Shown in pieces: positions 4,763 to 17,521 of a stretch of 33,861 nucleotides of DNA. The notes beneath the pieces are model-generated. The model made no database searches. It saw nothing but the letters and a program-made list of their open reading frames with translations, and had not been told where the DNA came from. This stretch comes from Deltaproteobacteria bacterium. Its GTDB lineage: Bacteria; Myxococcota; Myxococcia; Myxococcales; SZAS-1. Every line of letters begins with the position of its first letter. The stretch's first letter is position 1. The translations under genes were made by a program, and so were the position numbers. The stretch lies in the NCBI GenBank assembly GCA_018266075.1, contig JAFEBB010000078.1:1-33861 (forward strand). The letters are read 5' to 3'.

Positions 4763-6034
4763 ATGTCGTCCGGGATTCCGCCGCCGGAGAGGCCGGGTCG
4801 CATCGCCGCGCTGTACGTGGCGCTGATGGTGCTCGGCAGCGCAGGCGCAGCTGCGGTGAACGTGCTGCACCTGCCCGCGGGCCTGGCGGCGCTCTTCTGC
4901 TTCGGCGCCGTGGTGTTCGCGTCGCTGGCCATCAGCTGGGGCGCGGAGGCGGCGCAGTTCTACGTCTCGCAAGGCTTCGCGGTCGCGGGCGTGGCGCTGT
5001 TGCAGGTGATGCCCGAGTTCATGGTGGAGGCCGTGATCGCCTGGAGCGGCCAGGTGGATCTCATGTTCGCCAACGCCACCGGCTCCAACCGATTGCTCAT
5101 CGGCCTCGGCTGGCCCTTCATCTATGCGGTCGCGGCGATCTCGGCGCGCGGGCAGGACTGGCCGAGGGAGATCCGGCTGCGGCGCGAGAACATCACCGAG
5201 GTGACCGCGCTGCTCGCGTCGTCGAGCTACTACCTGGTCATCCTCGCGAAGGGCACGTTGGCCTCGTACGACGCGGTGGTGCTGTTCTCACTCTTCGTCC
5301 TCTATTTCGTCGCGCTGGGGCGCTTGCCCGCCGAAGAAGAGGACGACGCCGACGAGCTCCTCGCACCGCCGCGCTTCATCCTCACCCGACCGTCGAAGGT
5401 CGCGCGCATCGGCTGGCTCGTCGGACTCATCGCGTTCGGCGGCGGCGTTCTCGTCTCCGTGGCCGAGCCGTTCGTGCACACGCTGCAGGTCGTCGCGGTC
5501 TCTCTGGGGATCAGCGTCTTCGTGTTCGTGCAGTGGGTGGCGCCGTTCCTCTCCGAGTTCCCCGAGAAGGTGACCGCGTTCTACTGGGCGCGCACAGTGA
5601 AGCTCGCGCCGATGGCGGTGATGAACATGGTCTCTTCGACCGTGTCGCAGTTCACCCTGCTGGTCTCGATGATCCCCATCGTCTACGGGCTCTCGCCGCA
5701 CTCGAAGGGGCTGCTCGTCAGCGTTCCGATGGATCCGGATCACCGGCGCGAGCTCTTCCTCTCCTGGGCGATGACGCTCTACGGCGTGGCCTGCTTGCTC
5801 AAGCTGCGCTTCACGCGCGCGAACGCCATCGTGCTCTTCACGCTCTGGCTGGTGCAGTTCGCGTATCGCGGCGAGCTGCCGTTCTCGCTGCCGCTCATCG
5901 GCAGCCACGTGCCGGCGATCATCGCTTGGCTGCTCATCGTGCTCGCGGTGATGGAGGTCGCGTGGCACTGGCGCGAGCTCGACGTGCGCGGCGCGCTCTC
6001 GCACGCGTGGGGCTTGATGCGCCGGGGCGCGTGA
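4763..6034 (+). CDS. CaCA-superfamily sodium/calcium (cation/proton) exchanger
   Basis: 423-residue inner-membrane antiporter with roughly ten hydrophobic segments. The two inverted alpha-repeats of the CaCA superfamily are visible. The first, about 60-110, carries PEF at 84-86 and NATGSN at 104-109. The second, about 255-305, carries SEFPEK at 264-269 and a Ser/Thr-rich stretch at 291-296. An acidic cytoplasmic loop (EEEDDADELL, 191-200) lies between the halves, where many exchangers have a regulatory loop. It probably extrudes Ca2+ in exchange for Na+ or H+; the ion cannot be fixed from sequence. The start is the first ATG that gives a plausible N-terminus. A longer open frame to the left runs antisense through the M15 peptidase gene and is not believable. 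Apparently monocistronic. Confidence 0.88.
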   Translation: MSSGIPPPERPGRIAALYVALMVLGSAGAAAVNVLHLPAGLAALFCFGAVVFASLAISWGAEAAQFYVSQGFAVAGVALLQVMPEFMVEAVIAWSGQVDLMFANATGSNRLLIGLGWPFIYAVAAISARGQDWPREIRLRRENITEVTALLASSSYYLVILAKGTLASYDAVVLFSLFVLYFVALGRLPAEEEDDADELLAPPRFILTRPSKVARIGWLVGLIAFGGGVLVSVAEPFVHTLQVVAVSLGISVFVFVQWVAPFLSEFPEKVTAFYWARTVKLAPMAVMNMVSSTVSQFTLLVSMIPIVYGLSPHSKGLLVSVPMDPDHRRELFLSWAMTLYGVACLLKLRFTRANAIVLFTLWLVQFAYRGELPFSLPLIGSHVPAIIAWLLIVLAVMEVAWHWRELDVRGALSHAWGLMRRGA

Positions 6035-6127
6035 GCGTCGCGGGTGTGGCGCACGCGTGAATTTCAGGTGTCGCAGTCGGTTGTCGATTGAAGGACCTCG
6101 GAGCGGCGTCTAGAAGCCGCGCCCGAA

Positions 6128-7603
6128 ATGGGCCGCCTCGCTAAGCTCGTGGGACTCGCGCTGCTCGCTGCTTGTGGCGCGCCCGCAGACGCGCGTCGAC
6201 GCGAAGTGGTGAGCGCGATCACCGCCGCCGACGCGCCGCTGATCCGCAATCGGCCCGAGCTCGTGGCGGGCAAGTACCAGAAGATGGCGAGCGACCTCGT
6301 CGACTACTACCGAGGCGTGCTGCCGGTGTACGGGCACGATTGGCGCGAGGGCCGCTCGGAGCTCTCGCGATCGAAGTTCGCGCTCGATGGGCCGCTGGTG
6401 CTCTCGTCGTCGGATCCGCACCCGGAGAACTTTGGGACGCTGCGCGCGGCCGACGGCACTTGGGCGCTGGAGCCGAACGACTTCGATTCCGCGGATCGAC
6501 TGCCGTACCTCTGGGATGTGCGGCGGCTCTGCTCGGGCATGGTGCTGGTGGCGCGGCAGTCGAATCCGGACGTGCCCGGCGCGCGCCTGGCCGCGAGCGA
6601 CGACGCGCAGCAGATCGCGCGCGCTGCGGTCGAGGGCTACCGCGACGCGATCCTCAGCATGGCCGCCGGCGGACCTCGCGTGCGCGTGGTCGCCGGCAGC
6701 GATGGCGACCTCATCACCGCGGATCTCTTGCAGCGCTCGCTGAAGGGCTGGAACGGGCAGAGCGAGCTCACCGACGAGACCACGCTCGACGCGAATGGCG
6801 TGCGCCATGTGATCCGCGGCGTTCCGGATCCGACCACGCCCACGAGCGCGTACGCGGACCTGCCGCCCGAGGCGCTGGCCACGCTGCCCGCGGCGCTCGC
6901 GCAGTACGCGTCGAGCCTCGAAGTTCCCGTGGATCCCGCGGAGCTGACCTTGCTCGACGCCGCGCAGGAGTTCGGCTCGGGCGTGGCGAGCTGGCCGCGC
7001 GTGCGCGTGCTGGCGCTGGTGCGCGGCCCAAGCGACGACCCGAGCGACGACTTCATGCTCGAGCTGAAGGAGATGTCCGACTCGGGCGTGGGCGGCTGGC
7101 TTCCGCCGGGCGTGGTGGCGGACACGAATCCGCAGCGCGTGCTCCAGTCGATCCACGCGGGCTGGGGCGTGCCCGACGCGGATCCGCGCTGGGGTGCGAC
7201 GTCGTGGCTCGGCTTCGACATGCAGGTGAAGACGCACAGCGGTGGCTTCAAGACGTTCAAGGTGGAGAAGGCGATTGGTGCCCTGGGCACGCCCGCGTCG
7301 CTCGAGCGCTTCGCGCGCACGCTCGGCGGCCTGGTCGCGCGGGTGCACGCCTCGACGCCTGAGACGCCGGACATGGCGAAGCGCATCGCCGCGGTGATCG
7401 GCACGGATCCGGAAGGCTTCGCCGACGAACAGGCCGCGCTCGCCGTGAGCTACGAGGTGCAGGTCGAGGCGGATTGGGCGGGCTTCTCGCAGTCGCTGCA
7501 GGAGCTCGGGCCCACCCTGGGGCTCACGCCCGACGCGAGCGAGCACGCGCCGCCGGAGCTCACCCAGATGTTCGCGCCGCCGTCGTTTGGAGCCGCACCG
7601 TGA
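6128..7603 (+). CDS. DUF2252-family lipoprotein (kinase-like motifs)
   Basis: 491 residues. The N-terminus MGRLAKLVGLALLAAC is a lipoprotein signal (Cys16). The body matches the DUF2252 pattern: SSDPHPENFG at 94-103, EPNDFD at 115-120 followed by LPYLWDVRRL, a Gly/Ser strand at about 283-298, FMLELKEM at 309-316, and a C-terminal helical part with GGLVARVHAS. The first two motifs resemble the catalytic loop and metal-binding Asp of aminoglycoside-phosphotransferase-like kinases. Lys314 resembles the nucleotide-binding Lys but lies after them in the chain. The biochemical role of DUF2252 is not established. An exported copy is odd, because ATP is not expected outside the cytoplasm. Its TGA overlaps the GTG of the next gene, so the two are translationally coupled. 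Confidence 0.8.
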   Translation: MGRLAKLVGLALLAACGAPADARRREVVSAITAADAPLIRNRPELVAGKYQKMASDLVDYYRGVLPVYGHDWREGRSELSRSKFALDGPLVLSSSDPHPENFGTLRAADGTWALEPNDFDSADRLPYLWDVRRLCSGMVLVARQSNPDVPGARLAASDDAQQIARAAVEGYRDAILSMAAGGPRVRVVAGSDGDLITADLLQRSLKGWNGQSELTDETTLDANGVRHVIRGVPDPTTPTSAYADLPPEALATLPAALAQYASSLEVPVDPAELTLLDAAQEFGSGVASWPRVRVLALVRGPSDDPSDDFMLELKEMSDSGVGGWLPPGVVADTNPQRVLQSIHAGWGVPDADPRWGATSWLGFDMQVKTHSGGFKTFKVEKAIGALGTPASLERFARTLGGLVARVHASTPETPDMAKRIAAVIGTDPEGFADEQAALAVSYEVQVEADWAGFSQSLQELGPTLGLTPDASEHAPPELTQMFAPPSFGAAP

Positions 7604-8682
7604 AGACGCTCGCGATTGTAACCATTCTGTTTGGTGCCTCGGCTGCCCTCGCCGATGAGCCCGCGCCTGCGCCGGTTGAAGCGGCTGCGCCCGCGCCATC
7701 GTCGGAGCCCACGATCCTCGGCGTTAGCCTGAAGCCGGGCCTCGAGCTCTTCGGCCAGTACGACTACATCGACACCTTCAACAGCGACGGCAGCCGCAAC
7801 TGGTTCTCGCAGTTCGACGTGCCGCGCGCCTGGGGCTCCCTCGACGCCGAGAAGGGCACCGTGCGCGGCAGGATGCTCATCGAGGCCACGCGCTCCGCGA
7901 GCGATGGCGCGCTGCTCGGCGTCGCCGGTGACTCGTTCGTGATGCGCGTGCGCGAGGCGTGGGCAGGTTGGCGTCCGATTCCCGAGCTCGACGCGCAGGT
8001 CGGCGTGGTACCCACGTTCGCGATCGCCGAGCTCGACCAGGCGTGGATGACGCGCGCCGTGGCGCCGTCGCTCCTCGAGACCACCTCCCTCGCCCATGCA
8101 GCCGACCTCGGCGCCAGCGCGCGCTTCACCGCGCCGCGCGGCTACGGCTGGGCGGGCGCCGCGATTCTCAACGGCGAGGGCTACGAAGAGCGCGAGCTCA
8201 ACCGCGGCAAGAACCTCGAGCTCGCTGCCGAGCTGCGCCCGGCGCCGGATACCGTCGCGGGCCCGCTCGCGATCTTTGCGGACTTCGAGAACGGCTCGCA
8301 GGGCACCGCGCGCGTGCCCGTCACGCGGCTCACGCTGGCGCTGCTCTGGCAGGGGATCCGGATCCGCGCGGGCGGCACCTCGACGCTGGCCTGGGGCGTG
8401 GATGGCGATGGCGCGGCGCAGTCGCGGCTGTACGAGCTCTTCGTGCGCGGCGAGCCCATCCCGCGGCTCATCTTCGCGGCGCGGCTCTCGCGGTATCAGC
8501 GCGACGCCACCGTCGCCGATGACCGCCTCGACTCGGGGCTCGCGAGCGTCGGCTTCCGCGCAGCGGATCCGCTCGAGCTCTTCCTCGTGGCGCAGCGCAC
8601 CTCGCCGGGCGCGGCGGCCGCGAGCGCGCTCACCGGAAACGACACCTTCGACGTGCGCTTCGTGGCTCACGTCGTCTTTTGA
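7600..8682 (+). CDS. Outer-membrane beta-barrel (porin-like) protein, hypothetical
   Basis: 360 residues starting at GTG 7600, which overlaps the upstream stop as GTGA. The start gives a clean Sec signal (MKTLAIVTILFGASAALA, cleavage after Ala18). Choosing it removes an implausible 42-residue extension inside the DUF2252 gene. After a short Ala/Pro linker the protein is made of alternating-residue amphipathic strands (FGQYDYIDTF, RGRMLIEATRS, LYELFVRGE, LFLVAQRTS) and ends in Phe (FVAHVVF), the classic C-terminal signal of outer-membrane barrels. It resembles phosphate-selective porin O/P-like proteins in general character, but I cannot assign a substrate. It sits between two lipoproteins in one operon, suggesting an envelope complex or shared regulation. 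Confidence 0.75.
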   Translation: MKTLAIVTILFGASAALADEPAPAPVEAAAPAPSSEPTILGVSLKPGLELFGQYDYIDTFNSDGSRNWFSQFDVPRAWGSLDAEKGTVRGRMLIEATRSASDGALLGVAGDSFVMRVREAWAGWRPIPELDAQVGVVPTFAIAELDQAWMTRAVAPSLLETTSLAHAADLGASARFTAPRGYGWAGAAILNGEGYEERELNRGKNLELAAELRPAPDTVAGPLAIFADFENGSQGTARVPVTRLTLALLWQGIRIRAGGTSTLAWGVDGDGAAQSRLYELFVRGEPIPRLIFAARLSRYQRDATVADDRLDSGLASVGFRAADPLELFLVAQRTSPGAAAASALTGNDTFDVRFVAHVVF

Positions 8683-10788: not shown

Positions 10789-12567
10789 GTGTGCGGCATC
10801 GCCGGCATCGTCGACTACGAGCGGCCGGCCGAGACCTCGCGCACGGCCATGGCGGCCATGCAGCGCGCGCTCGCTCCGCGCGGTCCCGACGGTCAGGGTG
10901 ACTTCTTCGAAGGACCACTCGCGCTCGGCCACACCCGGCTGGCCATTCAGGATCCCGAGCACGGCGCGCAGCCGGTGGTCTCTCCGGATGGGCGCCATGT
11001 CCTCGTCTACAACGGCGAGCTCGCCAACGCCGACGAGCTGCGCAAGCTGTACGCGCGCGAGTTTCCGTTCGAGGGCAAGTCGGACACCGAGGTCGTCCTC
11101 GCCGCGCTGACGCTGGATGGCGTGGGTGCGCTGCGCCGCTTCAGCGGAATGTTCGCGCTCTTCCTCTGGGACCGCGGGCAGCAGCGCGGCTTCGCGGCGC
11201 GCGACACGCTGGGCGTGAAGCCCTTCGTCTATGCGCGCGAGGGGAGCCAGCTCCGCTTTGCCTCCGAAGCCAAGGCGCTCGTGGCCGCCCGTGGGACTTC
11301 ACCCGCAGTGAACATGGACGCGCTCCTCGAGTGGGCGCTGGTGCCGCAGTTCTCGAGCGTGGATCGCGCGCCGTTCGCGGGCGTGGAGATCTTGCCGCCG
11401 GGTGGGCTGCTCGAGGTGGATCGCGCGGGCATTCGCGTGTCGCGCTGGGCGCGCTTTCGCCCCGCGAGCAAGCCGATGGACGAAGACGCGCTCCTCGACG
11501 ATGTCCTCCGCCGCGTCTACATGGGCACGAACTCGGTGGCCGCGAGCGACTGGCCCACGGGTGTGTTCCTCTCCGGCGGACTGGACTCCTCGCTCATCGC
11601 CGCCGCGTCGGGCTTCTCGGTCGACGAGCTGCGCGCGTACACCATCCGCTTCGAAGGGCAGGACCACTTCGACTACGCGCACTCGGCGATCACCCTCGAG
11701 GACGACACGCCCTTTGCCGTGCTGGTGGCCAAGGAGCTGGAGCTCGAGCACACCTTCGTCGATGTGCGCCGCGAGACGCTGCCGAAGGATCTCGAGACCC
11801 TCGCGCGCATCAACGATCTGATTCCCGCGTGGGAGCAGGAGCTCGCGCAGCACCACCTGGCGCGCGTGGCGAGCGAGAGCGTGAAGGTGGTGCTCGTCGG
11901 CGACGCGAGCGACGAGACGCACTTCGGCTACCACTTCCTGCTCGATCCCGCGGCGACCAAGTCCGTCGACGGGCTGCTCGCGCGGCTGGGGGCGCCGGCG
12001 CGCCTGCAGATGCTGAACCCCGAGCTGCGCCCTTCTGCGCTGGAGACGCTCGCGGCGCGCTATCGCGGCGTCGTCGCCGAGGCGGGGCAGACGTGGGGCA
12101 ATCGCGATCAAGACGTGCTCGCGACCACGGCGCTCATCGTCGAGCGCTGGCTGCCGCGGCTCCTGCACAACGGCGATGTGCACACCATGGCCTTCGGGCT
12201 CGAGGCGCGCGTGCCGTTCTGCTCCGAGAACCTGCTCGACCTCGCGGAGCGCGTGAAGCCTTCCACCGGCCTCAAGAATGGCATCGAGAAGTGGCACCTG
12301 CGCCAGGGCTCGGAAGGCGAGCTGCCGCACGAGATCCAATGGCGTCGCAAGAGCGCGCTGCCCAAGGATCAAGGCGCTGAAGCCGTGTACCGCGCCGAGT
12401 CCGAGCGGCTGCTCGCGGATCCGGATCAGGTGGTGAAGCGACTGCTCGACGTGGCATTTTTGCGCGGCCTCGCGCGTTCGCCGCGCACGCTGCTCGAGGT
12501 TGAGCGGAGCATGCTCTTCCAGGCCATCGTGCTCACGCACTGGGCGCGTCACCACGGGGTGCGGTGA
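10789..12567 (+). CDS. asnB: Asparagine synthetase (glutamine-hydrolysing) family amidotransferase
   Basis: 592 residues, GTG start that places the catalytic Cys at position 2 (MCGIAG). The N-terminal class II glutaminase domain has RGPDGQG (31-37), HTRLAI (48-53), YNGE (74-77) and SDTE (98-101). The C-terminal synthetase domain has the PPi-loop SGGLDSS at 262-268. In this family ammonia from glutamine is channelled to an acyl-adenylate, normally aspartate. One conserved synthetase block differs: GDASDETHFGY at 371-381, where classical AsnB has GDGADE followed by an FGGY-type stretch. Together with the neighbours (glycosyltransferase, kinase-fold protein and PIG-L deacetylase, all overlapping or abutting), this suggests a specialised amidotransferase rather than housekeeping asparagine synthesis, but that is inference. 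Its stop abuts the next ATG directly. Confidence 0.85.
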   Translation: MCGIAGIVDYERPAETSRTAMAAMQRALAPRGPDGQGDFFEGPLALGHTRLAIQDPEHGAQPVVSPDGRHVLVYNGELANADELRKLYAREFPFEGKSDTEVVLAALTLDGVGALRRFSGMFALFLWDRGQQRGFAARDTLGVKPFVYAREGSQLRFASEAKALVAARGTSPAVNMDALLEWALVPQFSSVDRAPFAGVEILPPGGLLEVDRAGIRVSRWARFRPASKPMDEDALLDDVLRRVYMGTNSVAASDWPTGVFLSGGLDSSLIAAASGFSVDELRAYTIRFEGQDHFDYAHSAITLEDDTPFAVLVAKELELEHTFVDVRRETLPKDLETLARINDLIPAWEQELAQHHLARVASESVKVVLVGDASDETHFGYHFLLDPAATKSVDGLLARLGAPARLQMLNPELRPSALETLAARYRGVVAEAGQTWGNRDQDVLATTALIVERWLPRLLHNGDVHTMAFGLEARVPFCSENLLDLAERVKPSTGLKNGIEKWHLRQGSEGELPHEIQWRRKSALPKDQGAEAVYRAESERLLADPDQVVKRLLDVAFLRGLARSPRTLLEVERSMLFQAIVLTHWARHHGVR

Positions 12568-13764
12568 ATGAAGCGCGTGCTGCTGGTCAGCTCGGGCGAG
12601 AAGGGCCACGTGAACCCGCTCGTGGGCGTGGCCCAGCACCTGCGCGAGGCCGGACACCACGTGGGCTGGCTGGTGATCCCCGAACCCGTGGAGCAGGTGA
12701 AGAAGCTCGGCGTGGAGTTGGTGCGGCTGCCGGACGCGGCGCCGCTCGAAGAGATCGTCACGCAGGGTCCGGAGATGAGCGCGCTCGCCCGCGACGCGAG
12801 GGCGCTGCGGAGCTGGATCCAGGCGCTGTTGCTCGACGCCGTGCCCGCGCAGATCGAGCCGCTTCGCAAGGCGCTGCGCGCGTTCAAGCCGGACGTCGTC
12901 GGCACGGATCCGATGCTCTACCAGGCGTACATCGCGTGCCACGAAGAGCAGATTCCCTTCGCGGGGATCTCGTCGTCGCTCAACCCCGTGACGCCGGACG
13001 AGGTCGACGTGGAGCTCACGCGCACCGTGCGCGCGCTCGCGAGCGCCCGCGCGGCGCTCTTTGCGAGCCACGGACTCGCGCCGAAGTTCGCCGTCTGCGA
13101 CGCGCTCGGACCGGCGCTCACGACGTGCTTTGCCACGCGCGAGTACGTCGGCGACGCGCCCCTTCGTCCGGCGGTGAAGCTCGTGGGGCCGACGCGGCCG
13201 CTCGCCGCGCGCGGCGACGAGGTGCCCTTTCCCTGGGAGAAGCTCGACGCCTCGCGGCCGTTCGTCTACCTCTCGTTCGGTTCGCAGATTGGTTGGCAGC
13301 CGGAGATCTTTGCGCGCGTCGCCGGCGTGCTCGCGCGGCGCGCGGTGCCGCTGGTGATCAACGCGGGCATCGAACCGCACGCGCGTGGGCTCGCGGAGCT
13401 CCCGGGTCAGGTGATCGCCGTTCGCTATGCGCCGCAGCGCGAGCTGCTCACCAAGGCCGCTGTGCTCGTGACGCACGGCGGAGCGAACTCGGTGATGGAG
13501 GCGCTCACCGCGGGCGTGCCGATGTTGATCAGCCCGGTGTGCAACGACCAGCCGATCCAGGCGCAGTTCGTGGAGCGCGCCGGTGTGGGGATTGCGCTGG
13601 ATCTGCTGCGCGCGAGCGACGATCAGGCCGACGCCGCGCTCGGTGCGCTGCTCGATCCGGACGTGAATCCCTTCAAGCGCGCGCTCGCGCCCATCTCCGC
13701 TGCGTATCGAAGCGCCGACGGCGCGGGCGAGGTGGCGCGGCTGCTCGTCGAGCTCGCGGCATGA
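12568..13764 (+). CDS. Family 1 (UGT/MGT-like) glycosyltransferase
   Basis: 398 residues, GT-B fold. The N-terminal half has the acceptor-side motif GEKGHVNP (10-17) with the catalytic His14. The C-terminal half has LSFGSQ (235-240), THGGANSVMEAL (302-313) and NDQ (326-328), matching the nucleotide-sugar pocket of GT1 macrolide-type glycosyltransferases. It should transfer a sugar from an NDP-sugar to a small hydrophobic acceptor in the cytoplasm. It starts immediately after the asnB-like stop, and its own TGA overlaps the following ATG, so expression is tightly coupled to both neighbours. UDP-sugar donors would be available; the acceptor is unknown. Confidence 0.88.
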   Translation: MKRVLLVSSGEKGHVNPLVGVAQHLREAGHHVGWLVIPEPVEQVKKLGVELVRLPDAAPLEEIVTQGPEMSALARDARALRSWIQALLLDAVPAQIEPLRKALRAFKPDVVGTDPMLYQAYIACHEEQIPFAGISSSLNPVTPDEVDVELTRTVRALASARAALFASHGLAPKFAVCDALGPALTTCFATREYVGDAPLRPAVKLVGPTRPLAARGDEVPFPWEKLDASRPFVYLSFGSQIGWQPEIFARVAGVLARRAVPLVINAGIEPHARGLAELPGQVIAVRYAPQRELLTKAAVLVTHGGANSVMEALTAGVPMLISPVCNDQPIQAQFVERAGVGIALDLLRASDDQADAALGALLDPDVNPFKRALAPISAAYRSADGAGEVARLLVELAA

Positions 13765-14597
13765 TCACCTGGCGGCTGGAGCGCTGGCGTCCGCCGCGCG
13801 TGAAGCCGCTCGAGGTGTGGAATCTCCCGTACCGCGATGGGCTGCTCTACGAGCGGCTATGCGCGGCGTTCGCGGATCAAGGCGGGCCGCGCGTCGATGC
13901 CGAGCTCGCGCAGACGCTGGCGGTGCTGTGTCAGCTCGTCGCGCCGCGGGATCCGATCTGGATCAGCGGCGGGCTCGCGGCGCGGCCTGGGCTGCAGCGT
14001 GCGTTTCGTGCGTACGGCATCGAGCGCGCGCGCTTCGCGTCCGAGCCGCTCTTTCCCGCGGAGGCCGGCGGGCGGGCTGAGCTCGCCGCGCGCGGCCTTG
14101 CCAACGGCCTCGTCGTCGATCTCGGGCAGACCTCGCTGAAGCTGTCGCGAACGGTGATTCCCCGGCCGAAGTCGCTGCCGGTGTTTCTGGTCGAGCACGC
14201 GCCGCCGCCGCAGAACGTGCGACTCGAGCAGGCCGCGCGCCTGGCGGACTTCGTGAGCGAGGCCATCGCCTCACACGTGTCGACGGACTCGTCGCCCGCG
14301 CTCGTGCTGGGCTTGCCGTGCGCGCTCGACGACCGCGGGACGCCAGGGACGTGCACGTACGCGGGTTGGTCGAGCGACGTCACCTGGGCTCCGCGGATGC
14401 TCTCGCGCCTCGACGCGCTGCTGCCGCCAGCGCACCCTTGGCATGGTCGCGAGGTGCTCGCGCTGCTCACGAACGACGCCGAGCTCGCGGCAGCGTCTGC
14501 CGCGCTCGAGCTGCCGCACGACGCGCGCGCGCTGGTGGTGACGCTCGGCTTCGGACCTGGCGCGGCGTGGCTCGAGACGGAGCTGCGCCGTGGTTGA
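13761..14597 (+). CDS. ROK/ASKHA-fold kinase-like protein with permuted motif order
   Basis: 278 residues, no close match that I recognise as a whole. Residues 117-278 read like the first half of a ROK sugar kinase: phosphate-1 loop DLGQTSLK (120-127), GLPCALDDRG (184-193), TNDAELAA (237-244, candidate base Asp239) and phosphate-2 TLGFGPG (261-267). The chain then ends. The half that normally follows seems to lie in front: DAELAQTLAVLCQLVAPRD, WISGGLAARPGL with SGG at 69-71, and EAGGRAELAARG (101-112), like the adenosine motif and last helix of ROK proteins. I infer a circular permutation; whether it is an active kinase is unknown. Start ATG overlaps the upstream stop (ATGA); the end overlaps the next gene by 8 bases. 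Confidence 0.7.
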   Translation: MITWRLERWRPPRVKPLEVWNLPYRDGLLYERLCAAFADQGGPRVDAELAQTLAVLCQLVAPRDPIWISGGLAARPGLQRAFRAYGIERARFASEPLFPAEAGGRAELAARGLANGLVVDLGQTSLKLSRTVIPRPKSLPVFLVEHAPPPQNVRLEQAARLADFVSEAIASHVSTDSSPALVLGLPCALDDRGTPGTCTYAGWSSDVTWAPRMLSRLDALLPPAHPWHGREVLALLTNDAELAAASAALELPHDARALVVTLGFGPGAAWLETELRRG

Positions 14598-15423
14598 CGT
14601 CGTCTACCTTTCGCCGCATCTGGACGACGTCGCGCTCTCCTGCTCGGCGCGGATTCGCAGCGAGCGTGGCGCCGGAGACCGCGTGCGCGTGCTCTCGTTC
14701 TTCACCCGCGGTGATGCGGGCTACGCCGAGCGCAAGGCCGAGGACGCGCGCGCGCTGAAGCTCCTGGACGTCGAAGGCGAGCACGCCGAGCTGCCGGACG
14801 CGCCGTTTCGAAGCCCGCGCTACGACCGGCTCTCGCGGCTGTGCTTGACGCGCGATGCGGCGCTCGAGGATGCGGCGTTCCCAGACGTCGAGCGTGCGCT
14901 GGAAGTGGTGCTGCAACGGGAGCAGCCGGATCGCGTGGTCGCGCCGCTGGGCGTGGGCGGGCATGTGGATCACCGGCTGGTGCACCTCGCGGCGCGCAGG
15001 CGCGTGCCGGCGGCGAAGCTCGAGCTCTACGAGGATCGTCCGTACGCGCTCGTGGCGGGCGCGGTTCACTGGCGACTGCGCGAGCTCGGCGCGAGCATCG
15101 AGCAGCTCCCGCGGAGCGAGTACCTGCGCGCGTTCCTGAACGCGGCATACGTGAAGACCTTCCTGCGTCCGCGAGACTTCGTTGCGCTCGCGCATCACAT
15201 GCGTGGGCCGGACGCGGCGGACCCGATTCGCGCGGACTCGTCGGTCGAGCGACACGGCCTCGCAGCGCGCGCGTTCGCCATCGAGGTCGCTCGCGTGTAC
15301 GGCACGCAGTGGGCGCCGCTCTTTGGCGACGCGGGCGAGCACGATCGCGCGCTTCGCGAGGCGGCCGAGTCGCTCGGGGCGCCGAACGGCCACGCCGAGC
15401 GCTACTGGCGAATCGCGACCTGA
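14590..15423 (+). CDS. PIG-L (LmbE-like) deacetylase
   Basis: 277 residues from GTG 14590. The zinc-binding motifs of PIG-L deacetylases are clear: SPHLDD at 8-13 (His10, Asp13) and GGHVDHRLVH at 123-132 (His125, His128), plus the usual LSFFTRGDAGY after the second strand and LYEDRPYA at 146-153. Relatives remove the N-acetyl group from GlcNAc-linked small molecules, as MshB does in mycothiol and BshB in bacillithiol synthesis, or from aminoglycosides and lipids. With the glycosyltransferase two genes upstream, a glycosylate-then-deacetylate sequence is plausible. It overlaps the upstream gene by 8 bases, and its 3' end overlaps the convergent acyltransferase gene by 22 bases. Confidence 0.87.
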   Translation: MVDVVYLSPHLDDVALSCSARIRSERGAGDRVRVLSFFTRGDAGYAERKAEDARALKLLDVEGEHAELPDAPFRSPRYDRLSRLCLTRDAALEDAAFPDVERALEVVLQREQPDRVVAPLGVGGHVDHRLVHLAARRRVPAAKLELYEDRPYALVAGAVHWRLRELGASIEQLPRSEYLRAFLNAAYVKTFLRPRDFVALAHHMRGPDAADPIRADSSVERHGLAARAFAIEVARVYGTQWAPLFGDAGEHDRALREAAESLGAPNGHAERYWRIAT

Positions 15424-16361
15424 TCGAGCGCTGGCGCGGGCTGCGGCGCGAGCTCTTCGGGCGGCCGCGTCTTCCAGCGGCGGTGCATCCAGACCCACTC
15501 GGTGGGCACGGCGCGAATCGCGTCTTCGATGGCGCGCGTGAACGCTTGCGTCAGCGCGACCACCGCCGCCTCGTCGTGACCCTCAGGCAGCGGCAGCTCG
15601 CGAATCTCCATGCGGTGGCCGCCATTGGGCAAGCGACGGATGAAGCCCACGAGCGGCGCGGCGCGTGCGCGCAACGCGAGATCCGCGGCCGCGCGCGGCG
15701 TGAACGCCTTCTTGCCGAAGAAGTCCACGAAGACGCCTTGCACCTTCGTGTCTTGATCGATGAGCAGCCCGAGCGCGCCGCCGTCTTTCAAGAGCCGCAG
15801 CATCTGCTTGGCCGCGCCCGGCGCGCCGCGCCAGATGGTGCGCAGGTTTCCGCTCGCGCGAACGCGGTCGATGAGCGCGGTGAGCCGCGCGTCGTTCGAC
15901 TCTTTCGCGATCGTGGCGCAGGGCAGGGCGGTGCGTGCCAGCCGCCGCGCGAGCAGCTCCCAATTTCCGACGTGACCCGTCACGAAGACCGCGCCGCTCC
16001 CGCGCGCGAGGGCGCCCTGGTACGCGCTCCACGCCTCGGGCGGAAGCTCCACGTACTGCTCCAGCACCGGATCCAGTTTCCGGATCAGCGCCAGCTCCAG
16101 CGCGCTCATCGCGAGGTGCACGAACATCGCGCGGACGAGCTGCGCGCGCTTGGCCTCGCTCTTCTCGGGGAACGCAATGGCAAGCGAGTCGAGCGCTTTG
16201 CGGACTTCGCCCGAGAAGAGCGCGTGCGCGAGCGTGCCGAAGAAGCGGCCGAGCGGCGCGATGGCGGAGCGCGGGAGCAGCCCCACGATCGCCAGCGCCA
16301 CGCGAATCGCGACGTAGCGCACGCCGCGCTTGATGCGCTTGCCGAGCCGGACCTCGCTCAC
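15402..16361 (-). CDS. LpxL/HtrB-type lipid A acyltransferase family protein
   Basis: 319 residues from GTG 16361, which overlaps the stop of the upstream MopE-like gene as GTGA. An N-terminal hydrophobic segment (about 14-32) anchors the protein to the inner membrane. GHVGNWE (129-135) supplies the His-x4-Glu catalytic pair of LPLAT-type acyltransferases, and LLIDQD (199-204) with FFGKKAFTPRAA (214-225) are the further conserved blocks of the Kdo2-lipid A lauroyl/myristoyl transferases. It probably adds a secondary acyl chain to lipid A or a related glycolipid. A frame extending to 16409 is rejected because it runs through the upstream gene with a low-complexity Arg-rich leader. It is the last gene of a three-gene operon. 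Confidence 0.87.
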   Translation of the reverse strand: MSEVRLGKRIKRGVRYVAIRVALAIVGLLPRSAIAPLGRFFGTLAHALFSGEVRKALDSLAIAFPEKSEAKRAQLVRAMFVHLAMSALELALIRKLDPVLEQYVELPPEAWSAYQGALARGSGAVFVTGHVGNWELLARRLARTALPCATIAKESNDARLTALIDRVRASGNLRTIWRGAPGAAKQMLRLLKDGGALGLLIDQDTKVQGVFVDFFGKKAFTPRAAADLALRARAAPLVGFIRRLPNGGHRMEIRELPLPEGHDEAAVVALTQAFTRAIEDAIRAVPTEWVWMHRRWKTRPPEELAPQPAPALDQVAIRQ

Positions 16362-17521
16362 GGCGCGCTGCAGCCTCCGTCGGCGAGGCAGACGCCGGCG
16401 TCGCCGCACGAGCGGCCGAGGCAGTCGGTGTCGAGGCAGTCGGTGCGGCCGTCGAGGTCGTTGTCCACGCCGTCGTTGCAGAGGAGCTCGCGCGCGACGC
16501 AGAGCGGGCCAGCATCCGTCGCGCCGGCATCGAGCGGGCCCGCATCCACGGCGCCGGCGTCGACCGGACCGGCATCGATCGAGCCTGCGTCGATGGGACC
16601 GGCGTCCACCGGGCCCGCGTCGACGGATCCAGCATCCGCGGATCCGCCGTCGAGATCGCCTGCGTCAACGGATCCAGCATCGACATCGCCCGCATCGGCG
16701 GGTCCCGCATCGACAGGACCGGCGTCGACGGGTCCCGCATCCAGTGGGCCCGCATCGACATCGCCCGCATCGACAGGTCCCGCATCGACGACGAGCGGAC
16801 CGGCATCGGTGACGGGTGTGCCTGCGAAGCCGCAGTTCCCGCCAGCGCCACAGCTCTGGCCGAGGCAGTCGGGATCGTCGCAGTCGACGAGGCCGTCGCC
16901 GTCGTTGTCCACGCCGTCGCCGCAGTCGGTCTCGACCTTCGCGCCGCCCACGCAGAGGCAGCCGTTGCCGCACGACTTGCCCGCGCAGTCGGCGTCCTCG
17001 CAGTCGATCTTGCCGTCGCCGTCGTCGTCGAGGCCGTTGCTGCAGTTCTGCTCCACCGCGCCGCCGTCGGCGCAGAGGCACTGCGGGCCGCAGGCGTGCG
17101 TGCCGTCGCAGTCCGGATCCGCGCAGCCGACGAGGCCGTCGCAGTCGAGGTCGGTGGTGCCGTCGCACGCTTCCACCGCGGGCAGCACGCTGGGCACGCA
17201 CACCAGCGCGCCGCCGTCGCCGCACGCGAGCGCACCCGCGGCGCATGCCGAGTGCAGGCCGGTGTCGCAGGCCGAGCCCGCGTCCGCCACGTCGTCGACC
17301 ACGCCGTCGCAGTCGTCATCCACGCCGTTGCAGGTCTCGACGTGGCACTCGCTGAACGGGAAGCAGACGCCGTCGCCGCTCAGCTTCTGGATCACGCACA
17401 CGTCGCCCGTGCCGCAGTCCGCGTCCTTCGAGCAGCGGAACAGGTTCGTGTCCGGATCCTTGGGGAACGAACAACCGGCGACGGTCGCCATCGCGGCGAT
17501 GAGCAGGATTCTCGCGCGCAT
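16358..17521 (-). CDS. MopE-like Cys/Asp-rich lipoprotein with DAG pentad spacer
   Basis: 387 residues; lipoprotein signal with lipobox VAGC (Cys17). Repeated Cys-Asn-Gly-x-Asp-x-Asp-Cys/Gly-Asp-Gly blocks occur at about 64-73, 160-170, 200-210 and 348-358 (for example CNGVDDDCDG, CGDGVDNDGDG), each followed by an Asp-Cys segment. These match the putative metal-binding motif of MopE-type proteins of myxobacteria, resembling calcium loops closed by disulfides. Residues 239-340 form a spacer of about twenty Asp-Ala-Gly pentads. It is probably surface-exposed and Ca2+-stabilised; the function is unknown. Its ATG overlaps the stop of the PEGA gene (ATGA), and its stop overlaps the start of the acyltransferase, so all three are translationally coupled. 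Confidence 0.85.
   Translation of the reverse strand: MRARILLIAAMATVAGCSFPKDPDTNLFRCSKDADCGTGDVCVIQKLSGDGVCFPFSECHVETCNGVDDDCDGVVDDVADAGSACDTGLHSACAAGALACGDGGALVCVPSVLPAVEACDGTTDLDCDGLVGCADPDCDGTHACGPQCLCADGGAVEQNCSNGLDDDGDGKIDCEDADCAGKSCGNGCLCVGGAKVETDCGDGVDNDGDGLVDCDDPDCLGQSCGAGGNCGFAGTPVTDAGPLVVDAGPVDAGDVDAGPLDAGPVDAGPVDAGPADAGDVDAGSVDAGDLDGGSADAGSVDAGPVDAGPIDAGSIDAGPVDAGAVDAGPLDAGATDAGPLCVARELLCNDGVDNDLDGRTDCLDTDCLGRSCGDAGVCLADGGCSAP
16502..16807 (-). repeat. 15-bp-period coding repeat (Asp-Ala-Gly pentads)
   Basis: About twenty imperfect 15-base units encode xxDAG-type pentapeptides in the MopE-like lipoprotein. The third and fourth residues stay Asp-Ala (or Asp-Gly) plus Gly while the two flanking positions vary among Pro, Ser, Asp, Val, Leu and Ile. 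There are no spacers of constant length, so this is not a CRISPR. Confidence 0.85.

Follow-up and report, generated by a model that had tools for sequence, protein, structure and literature searches.

A 278-residue protein (P0001), encoded at positions 13761-14597 (+ strand, ORF translation) of the window, the whole 33,861-nucleotide stretch of contig JAFEBB010000078.1 analysed here, very probably has a circularly permuted ASKHA architecture. Few ATP-using superfamilies are larger than that of the ASKHA fold, whose two lobes are commonly accounted for by an ancient duplication and a hinge motion. Along the P0001 chain, the adenosine motif (SGG) comes first, followed by phosphate-1 (DxGQT), NDAEL and phosphate-2 (LGFGPGG), an order that corresponds to the normal ASKHA one after cyclic rotation; as judged from sequence, these motifs lie far above chance expectation. 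We know of no permuted ASKHA or ROK protein, and the displaced subdomain of FtsA is a change different from circular permutation. The initial annotation, which had proposed a permuted ROK/ASKHA kinase here, also knew of no described permuted ROK protein, and a search of openly licensed papers for permuted forms of ASKHA or ROK proteins, hexokinases or the actin-like fold found no described case, an absence that is no proof of novelty. In PMC1079889, circular permutation comes up solely as a general criterion for that paper's kinase fold groups.

Gene context and motif map of P0001

The P0001 gene is the third in a tight operon, after genes for an AsnB-type ligase and a GT1 and before a PIG-L gene, with starts and stops that overlap or touch:

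10789-12567, + strand: AsnB-type asparagine synthase-like ligase, operon gene 1
12568-13764, + strand: MGT-type glycosyltransferase (GT1), upstream of the P0001 family in nearly all genomes checked
13761-14597, + strand: P0001 gene, a conserved family with identical boundaries
14590-15423, + strand: PIG-L-type de-N-acetylase, its start overlapping the end of the P0001 gene

Since the gene start overlaps the GT1 stop and the gene end overlaps the PIG-L start (14590), the ends of P0001 are not a truncation artefact. A longer + strand ORF (12564-14597) and antisense ORFs were set aside as out-of-frame or GC-rich read-through. In single-sequence searches P0001 had no match in Pfam, NCBIfam or PDB, and the PIG-L protein gave a sub-threshold match to BshB1. 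Elsewhere in the window, a lipoprotein-like ORF (16358-17521, - strand) carries Cys-rich repeats and, after them, an extended DAGxVDAG-type repeat tract.

The following features were assigned within P0001:

13761-14108, + strand: residues 1-116, counterpart of the ASKHA C-terminal half-lobe (lobe II from strand 3' on)
13809-13829, + strand: LEVWNLP family signature, residues 17-23, which from the rotated order would lie at the position of the ROK GExGH substrate region
13965-13976, + strand: SGGL 69-72, adenosine motif, flanked by strand 66-69 and helix 76-84
14055-14090, + strand: helix 99-110 (PAEAGGRAELAA), last lobe II helix, directly joined to lobe I strand 1
14109-14594, + strand: residues 117-278, counterpart of the ROK N-terminal lobe and phosphate-2 hairpin
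14118-14141, + strand: DLGQTSLK 120-127, phosphate-1 loop
14307-14330, + strand: LGLPCALD 183-190, counterpart of the strand/loop with the VPGPVD motif in ROK
14472-14486, + strand: NDAEL 238-242, equivalent of ROK NDAN, with D239 as the proposed catalytic base
14544-14561, + strand: LGFGPG 262-267, phosphate-2 loop, 11 residues before the C-terminus

On the translation of 13761-14597, the residue positions given in the initial annotation proved exact, both for the first part (SGG at 69-71, EAGGRAELAARG at 101-112) and for the second (DLGQTSLK at 120-127, NDAEL at 238-242, TLGFGPG at 261-267). Its reading of a chain that stops after the phosphate-2 loop was likewise borne out, with the end falling 11 residues past G267 in a gene that overlaps both neighbours. 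The SGGL motif aligns with LTGGGALLRGL of MreB and with LSGGCFQNARLL of HypF.

The two parts match ASKHA proteins in reversed order

A profile of residues 1-115 alone was searched against 193 Myxococcota genomes in six frames, with E-values per genome. Eight outside matches, fetched from among the best, were all ASKHA proteins, identified from their own sequences: one HypF (Kae1-like domain, E 2.4e-6), six MreB (5.7e-6 to 6.4e-5) and one BcrA-type activator (6.3e-5). In every case the match fell on the C-terminal adenosine-motif region. PDB matches of this part also lay on C-lobes, namely residues 252-327 of MreB, 226-270 of 330 in Kae1, 225-279 of 325 in MK0840 and 305-389 of Hsp70. Single PDB values are not decisive, as the unrelated HisA was also matched, at 0.008; what is decisive is the consistent C-lobe position. 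These profile comparisons show the first ~116 residues to be homologous, at the level of sequence, to the ASKHA C-terminal half-lobe with its adenosine motif.

Residues 117-278 match ROK N-lobes by profile, as the initial annotation had predicted. With the full profile in native order, residues 16-158 of the PDB entry 1woq aligned to profile positions 133-282 (E 5.1e-5), followed by a run of ROK proteins comprising beta-glucoside kinase, GlcNAc kinase and glucokinases; in beta-glucoside kinase 4htl and GlcNAc kinase 7p7i both halves of P0001 were matched, in reversed order. A search of 56 genomes with the C-terminal part gave only three weak outside matches, one of which was a ROK protein (G052); the other two were rejected as chance, antisense-looking matches. 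The last ~160 residues are shown by these profile matches to be homologous to the ROK N-terminal lobe plus phosphate-2 hairpin.

The order of the halves was assessed on the ROK, BcrA/BadF-type and MreB proteins of these genomes, with target strand chosen by motif, shuffled copies as the null and the 99th percentile as the cut-off. Matches of the N-terminal part above this cut-off (3 ROK, 9 BcrA/BadF, 20 MreB) fell in the C-terminal half of the target in 32 of 32 cases, and those of the C-terminal part (19 of the 27 myxobacterial ROK proteins, 1 BcrA/BadF) in the N-terminal half in 20 of 20. The counts are not independent, given kinship within families, but the three families agree; the halves are thus reversed relative to ordinary ROK/ASKHA proteins, as had been claimed. 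Six PF02685-type glucokinases in the same test gave no match above the shuffle threshold. When the profile was rotated before the PDB search, ROK scores rose by only about 1 bit and that of MreB fell, a small shift because HMMER already sums both halves. No single search returned a strong full-length match to P0001.

Predicted structure and position of the cut

AlphaFold prediction from 30 sequences gave a best model with pLDDT 82 and pTM 0.81, the other four of five models being poorer (75 to 43 pLDDT) and the last residues of P0001 of low confidence. The predicted order of strands (E) and helices (H) is E3-8 E14-17 H29-38 H43-60 E66-69 H76-84 E90-92 H99-110 in the first half, then E117-121 E125-128 E131-134 H151-172 E180-185, and then H209-220 E231-238 H239-250 E257-262 E266-271; in this model, the order of the whole chain, when read starting at residue 117, is the usual ASKHA one. 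The top 50 VIA entries for the whole model were ASKHA proteins (best Z 9.3), and residues 113-274 superposed on 1woq 11-161 with an rmsd of 2.4 Å over 130 residues at 22% identity, by far the lowest rmsd among those 50. Foldseek on the whole model returned ASKHA proteins mixed with FabH-like ones, with no match at E 0.001 or better.

When residues 1-115 were modelled by themselves (pLDDT 75), they aligned mostly on ASKHA C-lobes, for example 3lm2 83-222, 4ehu 69-258 and EutJ 102-269, at Z 2-4, below an unrelated row at Z 5.4, and Foldseek found no match below E 1 for this fragment; these structural matches are weak, supporting evidence. The outcome against which the initial annotation had warned, a first part unrelated to the C-lobe, did not materialise: residues 1-116 match ASKHA C-lobes by profile and, weakly, in predicted structure.

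In the arrangement that these data suggest, the cut would lie just past the phosphate-2 loop. The former C-terminal helix (99-110) would have been joined to the former first strand (117-121), the new termini would have opened between lobe II strands 2' and 3', beside the phosphate-2 loop, and the folded protein would retain the usual two-lobed ATP cleft. In homologues at two loci (L103 and L061), the new junction, just after helix 99-110, accommodates insertions of up to ~65 residues, as expected of a surface linker.

Two other readings of the same data were weighed. The chain might not be permuted at all, with residues 1-116 forming lobe I minus the phosphate-1 hairpin, residues 117-278 forming lobe II and DxGQT serving as phosphate-2. 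Sequential alignments on whole ASKHA chains do exist (e.g. 12-255 on 19-291, Z 8-9, rmsd about 4 Å), as the two ASKHA lobes are pseudo-symmetric, and MreB gives a 3-bit secondary match of the non-permuted kind. However, these whole-chain VIA fits reach about 4 Å or more at 8-16% identity, against 2.4 Å and 22% for 113-274 on the ROK N-lobe; none of the 32 significant N-part profile matches lies in an N-lobe; and DxGQT is followed by NDAEL and then LGFGPGG exactly as in ROK lobe I, all of which makes an unpermuted chain very unlikely. That P0001 belongs to another fold and resembles ASKHA motifs by chance is more improbable still: the PDB E-values are individually modest (5e-5 to 0.1), and values in a similar range come from a few unrelated proteins such as HisA and argonaute, yet independent halves, independent databases and the fold prediction agree on ASKHA, with consistent positions.

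Distribution and conservation of the family

Whole-genome searches at E 0.01 found matches to the P0001 family in 51 of 195 Myxococcota genomes. Of these, the two weakest proved to be a BcrA-type activator and an MreB, both ordinary ASKHA proteins, leaving 49, and a contig scan added a Polyangiaceae MAG (L065), so that the family occurs in 49 to 50 Myxococcota genomes. Most members are from Myxococcaceae (Myxococcus, Corallococcus and relatives), with distant single members outside that family at L042, L065 and L099.

Conservation was read from 31 aligned homologues, which are 34-39% identical to P0001. Invariant positions include G70, G71, D120, G122, Q123, T124 and K127, as well as N238, D239, A240, E241, L242, G263, G265 and G267; L17, E18 and W20 of the family signature are also invariant. 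Motif order and chain ends are identical throughout: aligned members start shortly upstream of LEVW and end just past the phosphate-2 loop, and these shared positions indicate that the ends are genuine.

Several individual homologues stood out. At L103 (7918-8976), about 65 residues of imperfect repeats (LNEPPPSASxVERTxGxAG) are inserted at the permutation junction, and the L061 homologue also has an insertion there. The homologue in G089 (contig C1:10088014-10088931) was matched as two separate pieces, possibly reflecting an insertion or disruption within the ROK-like half. A record labelled Comamonas sp. KCTC 72670 (L064) contains a myxobacterial radical SAM-Asn-GT1-kinase cluster at high identity, and this assembly is probably mislabelled or contaminated.

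P0001 is an ASKHA protein rather than a ROK protein

From the AlphaFold model and its VIA matches, P0001 is predicted to form the two RNase H-like lobes that enclose an ATP cleft, and it carries the phosphate-1 (D120xG122QT124), phosphate-2 (LG263xG265xG267) and adenosine (G70G71) motifs, aligned with those of known members. The linear order phosphate-1, phosphate-2, adenosine is absent, with the adenosine region coming first and the cyclic order kept; linear order is usual in ASKHA proteins and is no criterion of homology. A ROK-type N-lobe is also present, its NDAN-type and LGTGxGG-type motifs aligning with NDAEL and LGFGPGG. The ROK Pfam profile PF00480, on the other hand, gave no P0001 match at E 1, and its best value among the homologues was 0.067 (0.05 after rotation); neither half of P0001 or of the family consensus contains the CxCGxxGC zinc motif or the GExGH substrate motif. 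On the strength of its motifs and predicted fold, P0001 is therefore to be filed as ASKHA, not as ROK. Of the permuted ROK kinase first proposed, the permuted ASKHA part stands and residues 117-278 are specifically ROK-like; the ROK assignment itself does not hold, residues 1-116 being at least as close to MreB, BcrA-type and HypF/Kae1 proteins.

Among known systems, the ROK sugar kinases (polyphosphate/ATP-glucomannokinase 1woq, 7p7i, 4htl) resemble residues 117-278 in strand order, NDA(E/N) and the LGxGxG phosphate-2 loop. They differ in having the halves in the opposite order and in carrying DxGGT, CxCGxxGC and GExGH, whereas P0001 has DxGQT and lacks the other two motifs. The C-lobes of MreB, HypF/Kae1 and BcrA/BadF-type proteins, with their helix-strand-GG-helix adenosine region, resemble residues 40-125; unlike in P0001, this region is C-terminal, after phosphate-1 and phosphate-2, and these proteins gave only one significant match to the ROK-like half. 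The archaeal ASKHA kinase-like protein MK0840 (4bg8/4bga), which carries the annotation of a putative sugar kinase, matches the N-terminal part with its C-terminal lobe (E 0.075), and thus, unlike P0001, has the canonical half order.

A conserved biosynthetic cluster and the putative function of P0001

In Myxococcaceae, the P0001 homologue is clustered with genes for a radical SAM protein, an asparagine synthase-like protein and a GT1, with an AMP ligase nearby in most. The clusters at L065 (1581-9652) and L042 (1782-9536) are compact, encoding a radical SAM protein, a degenerate and a full AsnB, GT1, a GT2-like protein, the permuted kinase and PIG-L, and seem to form a so far undescribed natural-product pathway to a glycoside or amide; the L099 cluster has a radical SAM protein, a GT2 and the P0001 homologue. 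On a separate contig of the window genome (C34, locus L214), an AMP ligase gene (DVU_1553/PaaK-like, 4948-6702, + strand) adjoins a radical SAM gene (6703-7866, - strand) whose product is 48% identical to the radical SAM protein beside the P0001 family gene in Myxococcus, and this pair is probably the missing piece of the P0001 pathway.

The combination of a glycosyltransferase and PIG-L is familiar from mycothiol and bacillithiol synthesis, and the GT, PIG-L and AsnB-type neighbours suggest that they make a glycosylated or amino-sugar intermediate. By that analogy, P0001 may phosphorylate a glycosylated small molecule, on a sugar or another hydroxyl. ATP would sit between G70-G71 (adenosine), D120/T124 with Mg (phosphate-1) and G263-G267 (phosphate-2), and D239 would deprotonate a hydroxyl of the sugar or other small molecule, which would then be phosphorylated. 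Catalysis is plausible, as the invariant Asn-Asp of NDAEL matches the ROK catalytic pair. We lean towards a putative small-molecule kinase activity, and regard a sugar as a possible, more tentative substrate.

The main functional rival is that P0001 has the permuted ASKHA fold without being a metabolic kinase, acting instead as an ATP-binding regulator or scaffold, or as a partner-activating ATPase like the BcrA/BadF-type activators. Its N-terminal part indeed resembles MreB and BcrA-type proteins as closely as it does kinases, most clusters contain a radical SAM gene, and the ROK substrate motif GExGH is lost. We nevertheless consider such a role rather unlikely, given that neither the proposed catalytic ND nor any phosphate motif varies, that the C-terminal part is specifically closest to the sugar-kinase ROK proteins, and that the glycosyltransferase, PIG-L and AsnB neighbours indicate small-molecule chemistry.

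Taken in full, the proposal is that P0001 is the first case of a complete ASKHA fold circularly permuted in nature, with its ends beside the phosphate-2 loop, and is an active small-molecule kinase in a conserved myxobacterial, radical SAM-containing glycoside pathway; we judge the case for this combined claim to be evenly balanced. The permutation explains how such proteins, with no Pfam or NCBIfam match, have escaped profile annotation, and the P0001 family points to a so far undescribed biosynthetic cluster conserved among myxobacteria. If the proposal is true, the canonical chain order would be dispensable for lobe closure and ATP binding, and a natural permutant would tell which chain connections are dispensable.
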